This document shows, piece after piece, positions 11,034 to 19,905 of a stretch of 34,380 bases of DNA (position 1 is its first letter; the number at the start of each line of letters is the position of its first letter). The stretch is from Pseudomonadota bacterium. Lineage in GTDB: Bacteria > Myxococcota_A > UBA9042 > GCA-2863065. Under the pieces are notes generated by a model, which was not told where the DNA came from, did not search any database, and saw nothing but the letters and a program-made list of their open reading frames with translations. Position numbers and translations under genes: made by a program. The stretch is taken from positions 1 to 34,380 of the forward strand of contig CANMLD010000022.1 in NCBI GenBank assembly GCA_947498315.1. The letters are read 5' to 3'.

Positions 11034-14000
11034 CTACGGAACGAAGCGCCAGAGCACGTAATTGCTCTGATCTTTCGTGGTCCCGACGACCGTGAGACCC
11101 GTTGAGAGGCTACCCGTGAGCGCCATCGGGAGCTCGGTGTCGACGGGTAGATTGAAACGGAACCAAGCCTTGCCGTCTTCGCCGTTCGAACCGGCCTGAA
11201 AGCCGGTAAGCATCCAGCCCTGGGCGTCTTGAGCGAGGACGACCATGGAGCCGCCGATCGCGACGGCGTCGTAGAAAGTTATGTCAGAGCCAAGCGGCAC
11301 GTAGTCTTTGCAGACGCCCTTGGAGCAGCGAGCCATGAGGCCCTTCGCGCCGTAGATCCACGCCTGCGAGCTGTCGACTTGAACGATGCCGTTGAAGATC
11401 GCCGCGTCTGCCGCGAACGTGCTCTGAGCTGAAGGGAAGGTGTTGTCCCCTTCGAGGTCGGTGCTCACGTCGAGGTTCTGGTCGGTAGATGTCGACACGA
11501 GGATCCCGCCATCGATGACCGAGTTGTAGATGCAGGGCGTAATGGTACAGGGTTGAACGACCGACCAGAGCGTCGCACCTCGCCAGTCTTGTTCTGCGGT
11601 CGGTGGGTTCGTCGGGAGCTTCGTGGTGGAGCACTTCCACGTCTCACTGCCAGCTAAGAAGCTGGTCGTCAGGACACACCGGAGCGCGAAACCCTTGAGG
11701 GTCGAGCCGTTGCGACCGCTTAGCAGGAACCACTCTTCCGAGGAGGAGAGCCCGCCAGCGAACGTGGCGCCGAGCGCGCGCCAGTCGATGTCCTTGTACT
11801 CCGTGGTTGCCGCCGCAATCGCTGCGTGGAGGGCCGAGTCGGTGAACTGCACCGACTGCACGCCTTCCGACACGAGCCCAACGATCGCGTTCTCTCCGAC
11901 CACGACCCGTCCGCTGATGGCGTCGGCCCAGCCTGAAAGTCCGCCGAGATTGGCAATCGTACCGCCGGGCTCGACGGCGAACACGCGGAAGTGCTGCGTG
12001 GCGAGGAGGGCACACTGAGCGTTAAACGGGTTGCGGACGCGCCCCATGAAGTTCGCAACGAACAAGTGAGTAGCGGACTCTGTCGTCGCGGAGACGGGCT
12101 CGAGCTCCGTCGAGTCGCACAGGCCCTTACCGACCGATGCGAAGGGATCGAAGCGCGCGCCGCCGACGCATTTGGTGTTGATGCAGAGGTCAGGGGATGT
12201 CGCCGCGTTGTTGTCGTCGCAAGCGATGAAGTCGGGTTGCGGTCCATAGACGCAGCCCCCGCCAACCACACATTTATCAGCGGTGCAGGCGCTGCCGTCA
12301 TCGCAAGCGTTGTTGTCAGCCGTAAAATCGCACTGCCCCGTCGCAGCACTACAGGCGTCGATGGTGCAGGGGATGCCGTCATCACAAGTCAGCGTCTTGA
12401 CGAGCTTGCAGGCGCTGCTCGAGGCGCTGCTCGAGCACGACTCGATGGTGCACAAGCTACCGTCAGTGTTGCACGACGTACCGGTAGCGAGTGGCGTCGT
12501 CACACAACCGAGAGTCGATGAGCACAAGTCCGACGTGCAGGGGTTCGCGTCGTTGCAGGTGACGATCTTGCCGGTGCACTTCCCAGCACCATCGCACTTG
12601 TCGGCGTCGGTGCACTTGCTGCCATCGTCACACGCCGTGTTGAGCACGGCGTTCGTGTACTTACAGCCCGTCGTGATGTCGCAGCCCGCGATCACCTGGC
12701 ACGTCTTGGCGGGGCACGTGACGGGCGTGCCGTTGCATACGCCGGACTTACAGACCTTGGTCGTGGAGCACAGGTCATCGGACCCACACGACGCGTTTTC
12801 GTTCGTGGGGACGAGCGAACATGTCCCCGTCGCCGGCTGGCAGGAGTTGGCCTGGCAGGTATTGCCGAGCGCAGAAGAGCAGACGACTGGCGTGCCTGAC
12901 TGGCACTTCTTGGAGCCGCTCCCCTGCGTCACGCACTTCTCGACGCCATTGCAGAGGTTGGAGTCACCACAGTCGGCGTCGACGGAGCACTCGCACACCT
13001 GCGTGCCTCCACCACAGACTCCGTTGGTGCAGGACTCGCTCGTAGTGCACGCCGATCCGTCGTTGCAAGCCGAACCGTTGTTCGCGTTTCCGGGTACGCA
13101 GCCGCTGACGGGGCTGCACGAGAAGACCTGGCAGGCCCCGCCCGTGGGGCAAACGACGGCCGCGCCGGGCTTGCACACGCCAGCCTGGCACAGGTCCCCA
13201 GTCGAGCACACGTTGTTGTCACTGCAGGGCGCCGTGTTGTTCGTATGGGCGCAGGCCGACTTCGGGATCAGTGGATCGTAGCCCGGCGGTGCAGTGCCTG
13301 TGCAGGTGTCCGTGGTGCAGAGGTTGTCGTCGTCGCACGTGATGGGCGTGCCGCGACAGGCGCCACTGACGTCGCAGGCGTCGAGGCTCGTGCAGATGTC
13401 GCCGTCGCTGCAGACGGTCCCGAGGGTGATGTTGACGACGCACTCACCTCCGACGCAGGCGTCGGTCGTGCAGGGGTTGCCGTCATTACAAACCTTGTCG
13501 GAGCCACCGCAGGTTCCGCCGCCGCATTTGTCGCCCGTGGTGCAACCGTCGTCGTCATTGCACGAGACCGTGTTGTTCGTGAACTTGCAGGTGCCCGAGT
13601 CACACACGTCGTCAGTGCAGAGATTATCGTCCTGACAGACGATGGCGGTCCCGGTACAGGCACCGCTCGAGCTACATTGGTCGTTCTGGGTGCACGCGCT
13701 GCCGTCGGAGCAGGGCGTCCCTGCCAAGATCTGAGGCTGACAGACGCCCGTCGCCGGCACGCATGCCGACTTGGAGCATGCCGTGTCCGACCCGGGGTCG
13801 CAGGTCACGATAGATGTTGGCGGGATGACACAGACCTTACCAGCACCGTCGTTCTGGCAGACGGGCGTCCCGTTACAAAGGTTGCCGTCGTCGGTGCAGT
13901 CGGCGTTGACGGTACATGCGCAGAGGTTCTGTCCTGACGTGCAGGCGTCCTGAGCGCAGGTGTCACCATCGGTACACGGGTTGTCGTCGGAACAGGCTTG

Positions 14001-14942
14001 GCCGTCGAGCGGGAAGTTGGAGCAAGACCCGGTGACGGCGTCACAGAGGTCGGCGGTGCAAGGGTTGCCGTCGCCGCAGCTCTTGTTCTGACCTGCGCAG
14101 AGGCCGTTGGAACAGGCGTCATTGACCGTGCAGACGACCCCGTCGTTGCAGATCCCTGACGCCTTCGGGGCCGCGTTGCAGATGCCACCCTCGCCACACG
14201 TTCCCGTCCAGCAGGCCGGGAACGGTACATCAGCCGGCACGCAAGGGTTGCCGGGATCGAGAGGGGCCACGACGCACGTCTCGTTCACGCAGATCGCAGT
14301 CTCACAGGGGGTCTTCAAGGCGGCACAGTCGGCCGTCAGCGTGCAGGCGAGCGGCCCGCCGTCGGTCCCATCGGTCCCATCGGTCCCGTCCGTAGCGTCA
14401 GTCGTGTCCGTGCCGTCGGTCGTGTCCGTGGCGTCGGTGGCGTCAGCGTCGGTCTCGCCGTCGGTGCCATCGCGAGCGTCGGTGCCATCGGATTGGTCGG
14501 TCGTGTCTACCCCGTCAACGCCGTCGGTCGCGTCTACGGCGTCGGTTACATCGCCGGACTCGGTCCCATCGGTCGCGTCGCTCCCGTCGGTCTCGGCTAC
14601 ACACTGCCCAGTGTTCGAGTCGCAGGCGCTGCCCGCCGCGCAAGGACGGCTGACGAAGCCCGCGCCCGGTGAGCAGGTCTGGCAGCGGTCACCCGCGAGC
14701 TCTTGCCCCGCCGCGTAACACGCGTTCCCGGCGAAGCAGCTGTTCGCCTGCACGGTGAAGGTGCACTGACCATCGTCGCAAGAGCCGGTTCGGCACGTAT
14801 CTCCGCTATTGCAGTCGCTGTCGACCTTGCAACCGGTCGTGGCGCCCGTGTCGCCGCCGCCGCTCGCGACTTTGATGTCGCCACAAGCGGCTATGCTGAG
14901 GATGCCTCCAAGGCCAGCGAGGTATTTTGTCCAACTGGGCAT
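11034..14942 (-). CDS. large Cys-rich disulfide-repeat lipoprotein
   Basis: At 1302 aa it has a lipoprotein signal with lipobox LSIAAC (Cys20), so it is probably anchored to a membrane and surface-exposed or periplasmic. A first Cys-rich block is followed by a Thr-Asp/Gly-Asp linker (about 117-196). Then come roughly 700 residues of repeated modules of the type CsDgnpCTtDaCxxGxCxg, resembling myxobacterial disulfide repeats. A non-repetitive, mostly Cys-poor C-terminal domain of about 350 residues begins near RFDPFASVGKG and ends in a beta-rich segment with WRFVP. Substrate and role are unknown; adhesion or extracellular recognition is a guess. ATG at 14942 has GGAG 9 nt upstream. Confidence 0.82.
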   Translation of the reverse strand: MPSWTKYLAGLGGILSIAACGDIKVASGGGDTGATTGCKVDSDCNSGDTCRTGSCDDGQCTFTVQANSCFAGNACYAAGQELAGDRCQTCSPGAGFVSRPCAAGSACDSNTGQCVAETDGSDATDGTESGDVTDAVDATDGVDGVDTTDQSDGTDARDGTDGETDADATDATDTTDGTDTTDATDGTDGTDGTDGGPLACTLTADCAALKTPCETAICVNETCVVAPLDPGNPCVPADVPFPACWTGTCGEGGICNAAPKASGICNDGVVCTVNDACSNGLCAGQNKSCGDGNPCTADLCDAVTGSCSNFPLDGQACSDDNPCTDGDTCAQDACTSGQNLCACTVNADCTDDGNLCNGTPVCQNDGAGKVCVIPPTSIVTCDPGSDTACSKSACVPATGVCQPQILAGTPCSDGSACTQNDQCSSSGACTGTAIVCQDDNLCTDDVCDSGTCKFTNNTVSCNDDDGCTTGDKCGGGTCGGSDKVCNDGNPCTTDACVGGECVVNITLGTVCSDGDICTSLDACDVSGACRGTPITCDDDNLCTTDTCTGTAPPGYDPLIPKSACAHTNNTAPCSDNNVCSTGDLCQAGVCKPGAAVVCPTGGACQVFSCSPVSGCVPGNANNGSACNDGSACTTSESCTNGVCGGGTQVCECSVDADCGDSNLCNGVEKCVTQGSGSKKCQSGTPVVCSSALGNTCQANSCQPATGTCSLVPTNENASCGSDDLCSTTKVCKSGVCNGTPVTCPAKTCQVIAGCDITTGCKYTNAVLNTACDDGSKCTDADKCDGAGKCTGKIVTCNDANPCTSDLCSSTLGCVTTPLATGTSCNTDGSLCTIESCSSSASSSACKLVKTLTCDDGIPCTIDACSAATGQCDFTADNNACDDGSACTADKCVVGGGCVYGPQPDFIACDDNNAATSPDLCINTKCVGGARFDPFASVGKGLCDSTELEPVSATTESATHLFVANFMGRVRNPFNAQCALLATQHFRVFAVEPGGTIANLGGLSGWADAISGRVVVGENAIVGLVSEGVQSVQFTDSALHAAIAAATTEYKDIDWRALGATFAGGLSSSEEWFLLSGRNGSTLKGFALRCVLTTSFLAGSETWKCSTTKLPTNPPTAEQDWRGATLWSVVQPCTITPCIYNSVIDGGILVSTSTDQNLDVSTDLEGDNTFPSAQSTFAADAAIFNGIVQVDSSQAWIYGAKGLMARCSKGVCKDYVPLGSDITFYDAVAIGGSMVVLAQDAQGWMLTGFQAGSNGEDGKAWFRFNLPVDTELPMALTGSLSTGLTVVGTTKDQSNYVLWRFVP
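14355..14594 (-). repeat. Thr-Asp/Gly-Asp-coding low-complexity repeat
   Basis: About 80 codons of TDGTDATD/DGVDG-type sequence made of short repeats such as GTCGGTCCCATC and GTCGGTCGTGTCC on the plus strand. It resembles the repeat in the Fn3/CFI-box gene and is a likely site of slippage or recombination between the two genes. Confidence 0.85.
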
Positions 14943-16394: not shown

Positions 16395-17921
16395 TCAGGG
16401 AACAGGGGCAGCCACTGGCGCCGGAGCGCCTTCGGCCGGGGCTGGGACGACGGGTGCTGGAGCGGCCGCAGCCGGCGCGCCGGGGTCCGGTGACGGGGGC
16501 GGCAGGGGCACGCCCGCCGGAGCTGGAATGCCAGCCGGAACGGGGACTTCCGTGGGAACAGGGGCGGCGGGCACAACCGGTGGCTGTGCGGCAAGCTGAG
16601 CCTCGAGGGTGGCGATGAGGGGCGTGAGCGTCTTGTCGGTCGGGTTTACGCCCGCCGCGCGCTTGTACAGCTCGATCGCCTTGGCGAGGTTCTTCTCGAC
16701 CTTCTCGGCGGCGTCCGCTTCGGTGAGCCAAGGACCGCGCTTCGCATCGATCTTGGCCTTGCCCAGCTCGAGCATCGGCCCCCCTCTCTTGATGAGGCGT
16801 TCGAGCGCCTTCCCAGCAGAAGCCCAATCGCTGAGCGCGAGGCCGTCGACGATGGCGTCCACTTCGGCGCGGTCGGCGCGCAGCTGTCCCTCGGCGGTCT
16901 CCAAGTAGCCACGCAGCTCGCCCTTCTCGTCGTCTGCGGCGATGCCTTCGGCCTCAGCAGCACCTTGTTTCAGGAGCTTCTCGGCTTCGGCCCAGTCGTC
17001 GGCTGCTGCCAGTTTCTGGGCTCGACCGACAAGCTTGACGAGCTTGGTCTTGGCCGCCGATAGACGAGAGTCGCGCTCGGCGCTCGCCGCCTGCTCTTGC
17101 TGGCCGCGGATGGCCTTGGCTTCTTCTTCCGTTACGCCGGACCCGAAGAGCTTGTCGCGAAAGACCCAAGCGAGTGTGCCGCCCGTCGCGAGGAGCATGA
17201 AGATGAAGAGCGACAGGAAGAGGAGGCCCTTGCGCCCGCCCGAGCTGACCTCGATTACCTCGCCTTCAGAGCCCGGCATCTCACAGATGAACTCGACGTT
17301 GCCGAAGCGAATTCGATCGCCGTGACTGAACGCCCCGTGGGTGACGCGCTGGTCGTTGATGTAGCTTCCGTTGCTGCTCTTCAGGTCCTCGACGTGCAAG
17401 GTGCCGTCTTCGTGACGAAGTACCTTGGCGTGAACGCGCGAGATCGAGGCGTCGACCACGGTTATGGCGCAGTCCTTGCCGCGCCCAACTAGGTTGACGG
17501 AGCGGGTGAGGTCGAAGGGCTTGCCTTGGACGGGCCCGTTGGTGCCGACGAGGCGCCCGAAGATCTCGGAGCCTGCGGGCCCCTGGGCGTGTTCGGTGCC
17601 GTCGTCACTGCGGCTAGCGCGGCCGACATCCCCGCCATCGATGTGGAGATAAAAGTCGCCGACCTTGACCTGAGCACCGAGAGCGACCTCGGTGACCTTG
17701 TGGGCGCGCTTGCCATTGATGAAGATGCCGTTCGAAGACCCGAGGTCTTCGACGTAGATCTTCCCCGCCTGAGTGAAGAGGCGCGCGTGTTTCCGGGAGA
17801 CGTTGTCGGAGGGGAGGATGATGTCGTTCCCCGTTCCGCGACCGATGATGAACTCACCCTCGCTGAACTGGTACTCCTCGGCGATCGCGCCCGCAGAATC
17901 CTCGATGATGAGCGTGAACAT
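16395..17921 (-). CDS. tandem-FHA membrane protein with helical and Pro/Ala-rich C-terminal region
   Basis: FHA domains bind phosphothreonine peptides. This 508-aa protein has two: FHA-1 (about 5-95; GRGTGND, SRKHARL, SSNGIFING) and FHA-2 (about 122-213; GRGKDCAI, SRVHAKV, SSNGSYIND). Both keep the conserved Gly-Arg, Ser-x-x-His and Asn. One membrane helix follows (about 232-253), then an Ala/Lys/Glu-rich helical region with possible TPR-like repeats (about 265-440) and a Pro/Ala/Val-rich tail. The FHA part should be cytoplasmic and the rest periplasmic. It follows the FHA-CpaF gene by 7 nt, so the two probably act together in Ser/Thr-kinase signalling. The partners are not in this window. 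Confidence 0.85.
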   Translation of the reverse strand: MFTLIIEDSAGAIAEEYQFSEGEFIIGRGTGNDIILPSDNVSRKHARLFTQAGKIYVEDLGSSNGIFINGKRAHKVTEVALGAQVKVGDFYLHIDGGDVGRASRSDDGTEHAQGPAGSEIFGRLVGTNGPVQGKPFDLTRSVNLVGRGKDCAITVVDASISRVHAKVLRHEDGTLHVEDLKSSNGSYINDQRVTHGAFSHGDRIRFGNVEFICEMPGSEGEVIEVSSGGRKGLLFLSLFIFMLLATGGTLAWVFRDKLFGSGVTEEEAKAIRGQQEQAASAERDSRLSAAKTKLVKLVGRAQKLAAADDWAEAEKLLKQGAAEAEGIAADDEKGELRGYLETAEGQLRADRAEVDAIVDGLALSDWASAGKALERLIKRGGPMLELGKAKIDAKRGPWLTEADAAEKVEKNLAKAIELYKRAAGVNPTDKTLTPLIATLEAQLAAQPPVVPAAPVPTEVPVPAGIPAPAGVPLPPPSPDPGAPAAAAPAPVVPAPAEGAPAPVAAPVP

Positions 17922-17928
17922 GATCGCC

Positions 17929-19905
17929 TCAGCCGCCGGTATCGACGACGGTCACGCGTAGACCCTCGGACGTGGACTGCACGAAGACGACGTGCGCGAA
18001 TGCGTGCTGCACGAGCCCCATCGCAAGGGCCTCGTTCGGCGCGCCGTGGTTCGCGATGACCTGCCGAGACAATCGGCTGAGTCCGTCTGCGGCATCGCGG
18101 CCGTAGAAGCTGGCCAGGACTCCTTCGGCTCCGGAGTGGGCGAGCTCGACGAGCGCAGCCGCGTCAGCCCCCGTGACCGGTGCGACCAGCAGGCGATCGC
18201 CGAGCAACAGCGGCAGTACGCGGAAGAGCTGCGCGCTCTCGTCAGGGAGGATCGGGAGGCGTAGACGCGTCACGTTGCGGTGGGGCACCGAGAGCGTGTG
18301 GCGGGCCTCCACGATGACGAGTCGGTCCTCTTCCGACGCGAAGAGTGCCAGCGCCCCAAGGACCGCGGCGCGGTCGGCGGGCGAGCGCCCCACGACCGCC
18401 ACGTTGGCACCGTCTTGGACCTGAGTGGCGAGGAACTCCGCGTCGTCGCTCGTGAGCGCGCCCGAATCGACGAGCGCCTTCATGGTGAGCCGACGGCGAC
18501 TCGGCTTGATGAAGCTGAGTACCGGGCCCGCCGCTGCGAGTGGCGGGAGCACCACTTGAAAGCCAGTGCCGTCAGGGAGCTCGCCGACCAGCATGGGCGG
18601 GCGGTTGCTTGCACTGAACCCGAGGGTGCTCGCGAGCCGGTCGACGATGCGGCTGAGTGCCGCAGGCGACGAGAACGACTTCCATACCGTCTCGGTCACG
18701 CCGTCGGCGGTCACGAGGATCTGATTGAAGTCATTGACTTGGATGCGCGTGACCGCGTCGTCGTCGAGGAAGTACTCGACCGGCCCGACACCGGTGAACT
18801 CGTAGAGGACGTCGTGGGTGAGCGTCGCGTCGTCGAGGAAGGTCGGGACGAGACCTCCCGAACGCGCCGTTGCGACAACTGCCCCTACGGCGGCCTCCAG
18901 ATCCGACCATTGCCGGTCGGAGAGGTGATCGAGGTGATCGGGGTCGATGTCATCGAAGACCGAGGTCGCCACGCGCCGATGAAGCTCGTCGAGGACGCTG
19001 ACGTAGGTCTCGAAGCGGGCGTCGCCGTCGTCACTGCTTCCACGAGCTTCCGTAGCCGGAGCTTCTCTACGGATGGAGTCACTGCGTGAAGCCGGAGGCG
19101 CCGGTGCTTCAGGCACGGGTTCGAGGTCTTCGTCCGCGCTCTCTGTCGACGCCACGGTCGCGACTGGAGCGACCTGGACTGGGGCGGGAGGGGGTGGCGC
19201 CACTGGTGGAGGCGCGATCACGGCCGGAGTCGCGGGCGAAGCCGCCACCAGCGGTTCGCCGCTGACGATCGCCATCGTCGTCGGCGCCTCGTCTTCTTCG
19301 AGCTCGACTTCCTCCTCGAGGACGGCGGCCGAGGGTTGCTCTTCTTCGACTTCGAACTCGACCTCGAGGCCGTCGTCGGAGTCCTCGGCGGGCTCGCCCT
19401 CGGCTACGCCCTCAGCGATGATCTCGACCTCGACGACCTCGGCGTCGAGCTCGTCGAGGTCGATGGCACGGGTTGCGGCCTCGGAGTCCTCGGACAACAT
19501 GGACGCGGGGGGGGCCTTCACGGTCTGGCCTTTCCCGATGTGTGGGACCGCCGGTGGCATGGGCGCTTCAGCCCGCTGCGGGGCGTTCGATGGCCGCATC
19601 GAGGAACCGGATGGGGGCGCGCCGACGAGCTGCATGACGAAGTCGCCGATGTAAATACGGTCGTCGGAAGTGACGACCCGGGGCGCGGCGATGCGCTCCT
19701 TGTTCACGTAGGTCCCGTTCGTGCTCTTCAGATCGATGACTATGAACTTCTCTTCCTTCACGACGATGCGGGCGTGTCTCTTCGAGATGTTGCCCTTCGG
19801 AAGGATGATGTCGTTGCCGCTGATGCGGCCGATCGTGAGCTCTTCTTTGTCGAACGTGAGCCGGCGCTCGGGACCGCCCTTCTCAATCATCAAGACCGTG
19901 AACAT
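17929..19905 (-). CDS. FHA domain fused to a degenerate CpaF/TadA-like ATPase
   Basis: At 658 aa: N-terminal FHA domain (about 5-95; TIGRISGNDI, SKRHARI, STNGTYVN), a long acidic/Pro-rich linker (about 100-295), then a region that follows CpaF-type secretion ATPases. That region has GVGPVEYFLDDDAVTRIQVN (about 372-391), a PDGTGFQVVLPPLAAAGPVLSFIK stretch (about 444-467) and LTMKALVDSGALTSDDAEFL. At the Walker A position stands VGRSPADRA (about 505-513), with no GxxGxGKT/S. The Walker B glutamate area reads RLLVAPVTG, and the usual TxHAN is SFYGRD. I infer a non-hydrolysing scaffold or regulator. Start ATG 19905 has GAGGGAG just upstream; the longer ORF start is rejected. Confidence 0.78.
   Translation of the reverse strand: MFTVLMIEKGGPERRLTFDKEELTIGRISGNDIILPKGNISKRHARIVVKEEKFIVIDLKSTNGTYVNKERIAAPRVVTSDDRIYIGDFVMQLVGAPPSGSSMRPSNAPQRAEAPMPPAVPHIGKGQTVKAPPASMLSEDSEAATRAIDLDELDAEVVEVEIIAEGVAEGEPAEDSDDGLEVEFEVEEEQPSAAVLEEEVELEEDEAPTTMAIVSGEPLVAASPATPAVIAPPPVAPPPPAPVQVAPVATVASTESADEDLEPVPEAPAPPASRSDSIRREAPATEARGSSDDGDARFETYVSVLDELHRRVATSVFDDIDPDHLDHLSDRQWSDLEAAVGAVVATARSGGLVPTFLDDATLTHDVLYEFTGVGPVEYFLDDDAVTRIQVNDFNQILVTADGVTETVWKSFSSPAALSRIVDRLASTLGFSASNRPPMLVGELPDGTGFQVVLPPLAAAGPVLSFIKPSRRRLTMKALVDSGALTSDDAEFLATQVQDGANVAVVGRSPADRAAVLGALALFASEEDRLVIVEARHTLSVPHRNVTRLRLPILPDESAQLFRVLPLLLGDRLLVAPVTGADAAALVELAHSGAEGVLASFYGRDAADGLSRLSRQVIANHGAPNEALAMGLVQHAFAHVVFVQSTSEGLRVTVVDTGG

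Follow-up and report, generated by a model that had tools for sequence, protein, structure and literature searches.

ATPase activity is what the secretion and pilus motors of the T2SSE/VirB11 superfamily are known for, and database entries label such proteins as motor ATPases. FhaB/FipA, GarA and OdhI are actinobacterial FHA proteins of Hanks-kinase pathways; they have no CpaF domain, and their likeness to the protein described here is limited to the FHA domain. Closer to it are the FHA-fused motors. Class III CpaF is a form of the Tad motor ATPase with the architecture FHA-IDR-3HB-NTD-CAD (PMC12019362). In the Kil contact-dependent killing system of Myxococcus xanthus, the ATPase KilF is FHA-fused and several FHA proteins are found in the cluster (PMC8460266).

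The window (the whole 34,380-nt stretch of DNA analysed) carries a gene whose product has the same order of parts as class III CpaF, namely an FHA domain, a disordered region, a three-helix bundle, an N-terminal domain and an ATPase domain (Table 1). Unlike class III CpaF, it has none of the named residues of the nucleotide site, and no Tad locus was found for it. The locus is also like that of KilF and KilD, where an FHA-fused ATPase, surrounding FHA proteins and a functionally linked downstream gene are found together (PMC8460266), a likeness that rests on the description of these two M. xanthus proteins and not on their sequences. We consider the protein to be a conserved pseudo-ATPase, derived from an FHA-fused motor of the Tad/Kil type (class III CpaF) whose fold it retains, and now most likely acting as a phosphothreonine-dependent scaffold, a reading to which we give a probability of roughly 0.68. 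The frame opens with the ATG at 19905, which is preceded by a purine-rich stretch, and stops at 17929; a GTG 15 codons upstream is also a possible start. A plus-strand reading of the same interval is ruled out by stops.

Table 1. Features of the FHA-CpaF locus, in window positions
Feature	Residues	Position	Strand	Basis or remark
FHA-(disordered linker)-CpaF-like pseudo-ATPase gene, 658 aa		17929..19905	-	Pfam, NCBIfam, phmmer, AlphaFold2, Foldseek
FHA domain	1-96	19618..19905	-	Pfam PF00498 (residues 24-87, 1.6e-18); (near-)invariance across the class; pLDDT ~95
Disordered acidic/proline-rich linker	97-289	19039..19617	-	pLDDT mostly <50; dN/dS 0.15-0.29 in relatives
Candidate phosphoacceptor/FHA-ligand motif EAATRAID, Thr with hydrophobic residue at +3	142-149	19459..19482	-	by eye; recurs in f1, f3, f7, f9
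CpaF-like three-helix bundle, N-terminal domain and RecA-like ATPase domain, catalytically degenerate	290-658	17932..19038	-	profile, alignment, fold
Arginine-finger segment remnant GELPDGTG (CpaF ARLPDGSR)		18562..18585	-	R217, R223 lost
Walker A remnant VAVVGRSPADRAA	502-514	18364..18402	-	K287>R, T288>A, G284>P, G286>D
Asp box remnant (E)ARHTL (CpaF EDAAEL)		18292..18306	-	D309>A, E312>T
Walker B remnant LLVAPVTG (CpaF IIVGEVRG)	572-579	18169..18192	-	E357>P
His box remnant ASFYGRD (CpaF GTLHANS, T-x-HAN)	598-604	18094..18114	-	alignment
Partner gene, tandem FHA, 508 aa, 7 nt downstream of the FHA-CpaF stop		16395..17921	-	39/40 class loci

An FHA-CpaF fusion had been proposed by a sequence-only reading of this DNA, and both parts are confirmed, the FHA part by Pfam and the CpaF part by NCBIfam, phmmer and the fold. 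The NCBIfam profile for TadA/CpaF (TIGR03819) matches residues 361-653 at 4.5e-26, and phmmer against the PDB finds CpaF (9e24) at 1.2e-27; yet with 92 bits the protein falls far short of the 373 bits that TIGR03819 membership requires, and Pfam T2SSE has no match in it. Thus the CpaF ancestry is real, but the protein lies far from an ordinary member. The structure prediction agrees with this homology. In an AlphaFold2 model built with 43 family sequences, confidence is high for the FHA domain (pLDDT ~95) and for residues 291-655 (~90-97), whose predicted elements follow the CpaF order, while residues ~97-289 are disordered (mostly <50). The best PDB matches to the model by Foldseek are the TadA/CpaF structures 8rjf, 9e24 and 8rkd (E 8e-26 to 3e-24; TM ~0.6, target-normalised), with VirB11 and FlaI ranking behind them. 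The Tad pilus motor TadA/CpaF (PDB 8rjf, 9e24) is the best match in sequence as well as in fold, but identity to it is ~20% and the residues for hydrolysis are absent.

The nucleotide site of Caulobacter CpaF includes K287 and T288 in Walker A, E312 in the Asp box, E357 in Walker B and the arginine fingers R217, R223 and R347, the last of which is held by D215 (PMC12019362). In the alignment all eight are replaced in the window protein (D215>V440, R217>E442, R223>G448, K287>R512, T288>A513, E312>T537, R347>L566 and E357>P576), although Walker A still has its first glycine (G506) and the Asp box its first glutamate (E533). The strings that had been quoted for the lost Walker A, Walker B and HAN motifs are present as described, and the loss extends to E312, D215 and the three arginine fingers. 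An alternative Walker A had been named as what would overturn that description; a regex scan of the whole protein for GxxxxGK[ST] found none. Chance does not account for these replacements, because the 27 intact CpaFs of the alignment, which comprises 84 FHA-CpaF family members, 26 other CpaFs of the phylum and Caulobacter CpaF, keep the residues almost without exception. Since some of these 27, the KilF-like ones, carry an FHA fusion too, what is compared is degenerate with intact and not fused with unfused. We infer that the window protein would not hydrolyse nucleotide in vitro.

The FHA domain has its phosphothreonine-binding residues intact (G26, R27, N31, S41, R43, H44, S61, T62, N63, G64, T65 and N68). 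The ligand-binding set GR...S.RH...N is complete, and it is invariant or nearly so across the orthologues of the class to which the source genome belongs. Established FHA chemistry, taken together with these residues, makes it likely that the protein reads phosphothreonine. A possible ligand lies in the linker. Members of families f1, f3, f7 and f9 have T-[RQE]-A-[IL] following acidic residues, G017 has three copies of DESTQAI, and nine f6 members have an ATVAMPA-like motif, [AP]-T-[VIM]-[ASV]-M. The pattern T-x-A-[ILM] is enriched in those class linkers that had not been inspected beforehand (6/22 versus 1.3 expected, with relatedness not controlled), and there is no enrichment outside the class. 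The threonine of this class-confined motif could be both a kinase site and an FHA ligand. Several FHA matches in the phylum with open frames of 130-240 aa sit at contig ends (e.g. G105:C366, G377:C74, G188:C230), which suggests that contigs tend to end in the linker, whose sequence is proline-rich and of low complexity.

The partner gene, which the sequence-only reading did not mention, encodes a protein with FHA domains at about residues 1-97 and 120-215, a single transmembrane helix predicted at 229-253 and a C-terminus (265-445) that is helical and TPR-like. In both FHA domains the ligand-contact residues are invariant or nearly so among 24 aligned partners, so that phosphothreonine reading, which had been claimed for the FHA-CpaF protein, is supported at the level of residues for both proteins. 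Against the FhaB model the partner scores 124 bits where the cut-off is 125 bits, a score summed over the two FHA domains. A tandem-FHA gene directly follows FHA-CpaF in every class locus but one, and that one is cut by a contig end. Outside the class such a gene also adjoins in f19, f28, f30, f36, f41, f43 and f48; it is not adjacent in f18, f22, f38, f45 and others, and hence the pair is not universal. The window gene has as neighbours the tandem-FHA gene, an M18 aminopeptidase and an MlaE permease, and flanking genes other than the partner differ between families. Because they change in this way, the other conserved neighbours are best seen as lineage synteny, and thiazole-synthesis-like genes, an acyl-CoA synthetase and the envelope-sugar genes of f5 were rejected as functional neighbours on this judgement.

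The scaffold role that the sequence-only reading had proposed is a reasonable one. On this view, the ancestor was an FHA-fused Tad/Kil-type motor that would have lost hydrolysis and retained its fold. The FHA domain of the window protein and the two of its partner would dock on threonines phosphorylated by Hanks-type kinases, possibly threonines in the linkers of the two proteins themselves, and the CpaF-like body would provide an oligomeric or protein-binding platform. The source genome has 44 Pkinase matches (Hanks-type kinases). Gene linkage and the retained fold suggest that the protein is a scaffold acting with the tandem-FHA membrane protein, and we infer that it binds phosphopeptides, oligomerises and touches its partner, as we infer the pathway that it serves.

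The company that the protein keeps in its own genome bears on whether it is still attached to a motor. Active CpaF and Tad genes had been suggested as a check, and none was found, although at 91% completeness absence is not proof: T2SSE proteins occur there only as PilB/PilT/GspE types, with no active CpaF, and T2SSF proteins only as double-domain PilC/GspF types, with no TadB/C. The T2SSF proteins of the relatives G001, G002, G004, G005 and G006 are likewise only double-domain, and there is no secretin/platform/pilin cluster around the window gene. With neither an active CpaF nor a single-domain TadB/C-type T2SSF in the genome, the dead protein appears to persist without a detectable Tad machine. 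It might instead be a regulatory subunit, joining or capping an active secretion ATPase and tuning it by threonine phosphorylation. The kept fold would suit such a role, and active PilB/PilT/GspE-type ATPases with PilC/GspF platforms are at hand in the same genome. However, CpaF falls in another subfamily than PilB/PilT/GspE. Neither in the window nor in those relatives that were inspected could a pil or gsp gene be recognised close to the locus, whose conserved neighbour is an FHA protein, so this role seems unlikely.

How far the nucleotide site has decayed can be followed across the phylum, where the sampled genomes are mostly incomplete assemblies. The CpaF-like part has a homologue in 49 of 53 relatives, nearly all of them FHA fusions. 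The diagnostic FHA (E <1e-22) is found in 226/380 sampled genomes, and all 40 such loci that were fetched outside the class have a CpaF-like domain, with the P-loop pattern in only five (four f19, one f38). A search of GTDB contigs for related loci gave one FHA-only match, in an Oligoflexales genome, which was set aside. The f51 pair among the 84 aligned members is fully intact and was excluded; in the alignment of the remaining 82, the Walker-A lysine is kept in 17, the Walker-B glutamate in 22 and the HAN asparagine in two. No member keeps all seven key catalytic residues and ten, the window protein included, keep none. Loss of all motifs thus holds for the window protein as claimed; family-wide the loss is graded, and total loss is its end state. 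In f40, a family with very large genomes, Walker A is replaced by loops such as SASGGVNLER in FHA-CpaF-like proteins (L180 and L184, in G231 and G227), some of which occur in two or three copies.

Retention of the lysine (17/82), and of the glycine before it (56/82), means that some relatives may still bind nucleotide. It is then conceivable that the protein is a nucleotide sensor, to which ATP or some other nucleotide would bind non-canonically and without being hydrolysed, the signal being a change of conformation. The phosphate loop may indeed survive in part of the family, where 78/82 members have the first glycine of Walker A and the commonest Walker-A state is K to R (40/82). In the window protein, however, the loop is altered at G284, G286 and T288, and the Mg-coordinating E312 is gone along with the three arginine fingers, which makes a sensor role distinctly improbable.

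Intact relatives show what the ancestral setting may have looked like. The intact KilF-like copies of the phylum, unlike the window gene, keep the catalytic residues and adjoin secretin and/or platform genes. In one of them (G053), a tandem-FHA plus TPR protein is encoded downstream, and it matches the window partner over both FHA domains (32%, 1e-26). The gene order secretin, FHA-CpaF, FHA protein is found both in this KilF-like locus and in the intact sister family f51, and it is reminiscent of the Kil system. Such rows of genes would fit a Kil/Tad accessory role, in which the dead protein is an FHA adaptor beside an active CpaF/KilF of a contact-dependent pilus, as would the active CpaF of the class genomes G018, G025, G034 and G047, which in three of these accompanies the dead one (since the phylum search scored only six candidates per genome, the number of second CpaF copies found is a minimum). 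But in most class genomes searched, the source genome among them, the dead protein is present and no active CpaF was detected, and the class genomes checked are without TadB/C. An accessory of this kind is therefore very unlikely.

A maximum-likelihood tree was made without the catalytic columns, using 74 degenerate sequences, with SH-aLRT support only and a chosen root. All 74 fall in one clade (SH-aLRT 99) beside the intact f51 pair, with long branches present. G327 branches first within the clade; its Walker A, Walker B and Asp box are still in place, but its HAN box reads SVSAAS. The HAN box is also altered in members that keep the lysine (f19, f38 and some of f5, f6 and f12). Taken with the position of G327, this suggests that the His box was probably lost early and the Walker-A lysine late, an order read from a quick tree with long branches.

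In pairs of close relatives dN/dS of the degenerate domain is 0.03-0.19, compared with 0-0.11 for the FHA domain and 0.15-0.29 for the linker; in the least diverged pairs it is mostly 0.03-0.09, and across pairs several dS values are near saturation. Such values indicate that the dead domain is kept by purifying selection. A decaying gene that lost its motor function and is on its way to a pseudogene, as the loss of all motifs and the long branches might suggest, is scarcely credible and was rejected on the dN/dS and the distribution across the phylum, the frame being open in the sampled members. The earlier description of the protein as a conserved pseudoenzyme is strongly supported: orthologues occur throughout the phylum and group in one clade, the dead domain is under purifying selection and the predicted fold is intact.

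If the scaffold reading is correct, the family would be a clear case of a motor turned scaffold, its fold kept and its chemistry lost, and present usually once per genome across the phylum. The order of loss is testable from the surviving intermediates: f51 is intact, G327 has lost mainly the His box, and f19, f38 and f6 include lysine-keepers. A wider proposal, which we put forward tentatively and rate at somewhat under even odds, is that of a phylum-wide signalling module. An ancestral Kil/Tad-type FHA-CpaF would have lost its engine stepwise, the His/HAN box among the first parts and the lysine late, and would have been kept in many lineages with its tandem-FHA membrane partner as the core of a kinase-controlled, pilus-independent envelope scaffold. 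The family would offer a conserved and concrete hub, open to testing, for the numerous Hanks kinases and FHA proteins of these bacteria. The open-licence literature searched yielded no account of the degenerate FHA-CpaF family, which would also caution against annotating such proteins automatically as pilus ATPases.

Some further observations concern the surroundings of these genes. In two outgroup genomes, G327 (L130:2372-6356) and G279 (L132:1722-4722), FHA-CpaF lies near a PP2C phosphatase. Also nearby are, in G327, an FHA-trypsin protein and a zinc-ribbon protein that has two FHA domains and, in G279, an FHA protein as well as a zinc-ribbon protein with a Hanks kinase. The window itself encodes, at 11034-14942 on the minus strand, a cysteine-rich repeat protein of 1302 aa with an acidic, DGTD-rich stretch, which is probably secreted and in which Pfam finds only Dicty_CTDC repeats. 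The source genome has a second degenerate secretion ATPase on contig C288 (L025:1483-3300, minus strand), an MshEN-GspE/PilB-like protein with GPRDSGRT at Walker A (K to R), VLVLDGLEL at Walker B and VIASVSAP at the His box. It also has a third, divergent double-domain PilC-like T2SSF protein (G000:C104:15247-16050) without an obvious cognate ATPase, and similar third copies are found in several relatives.
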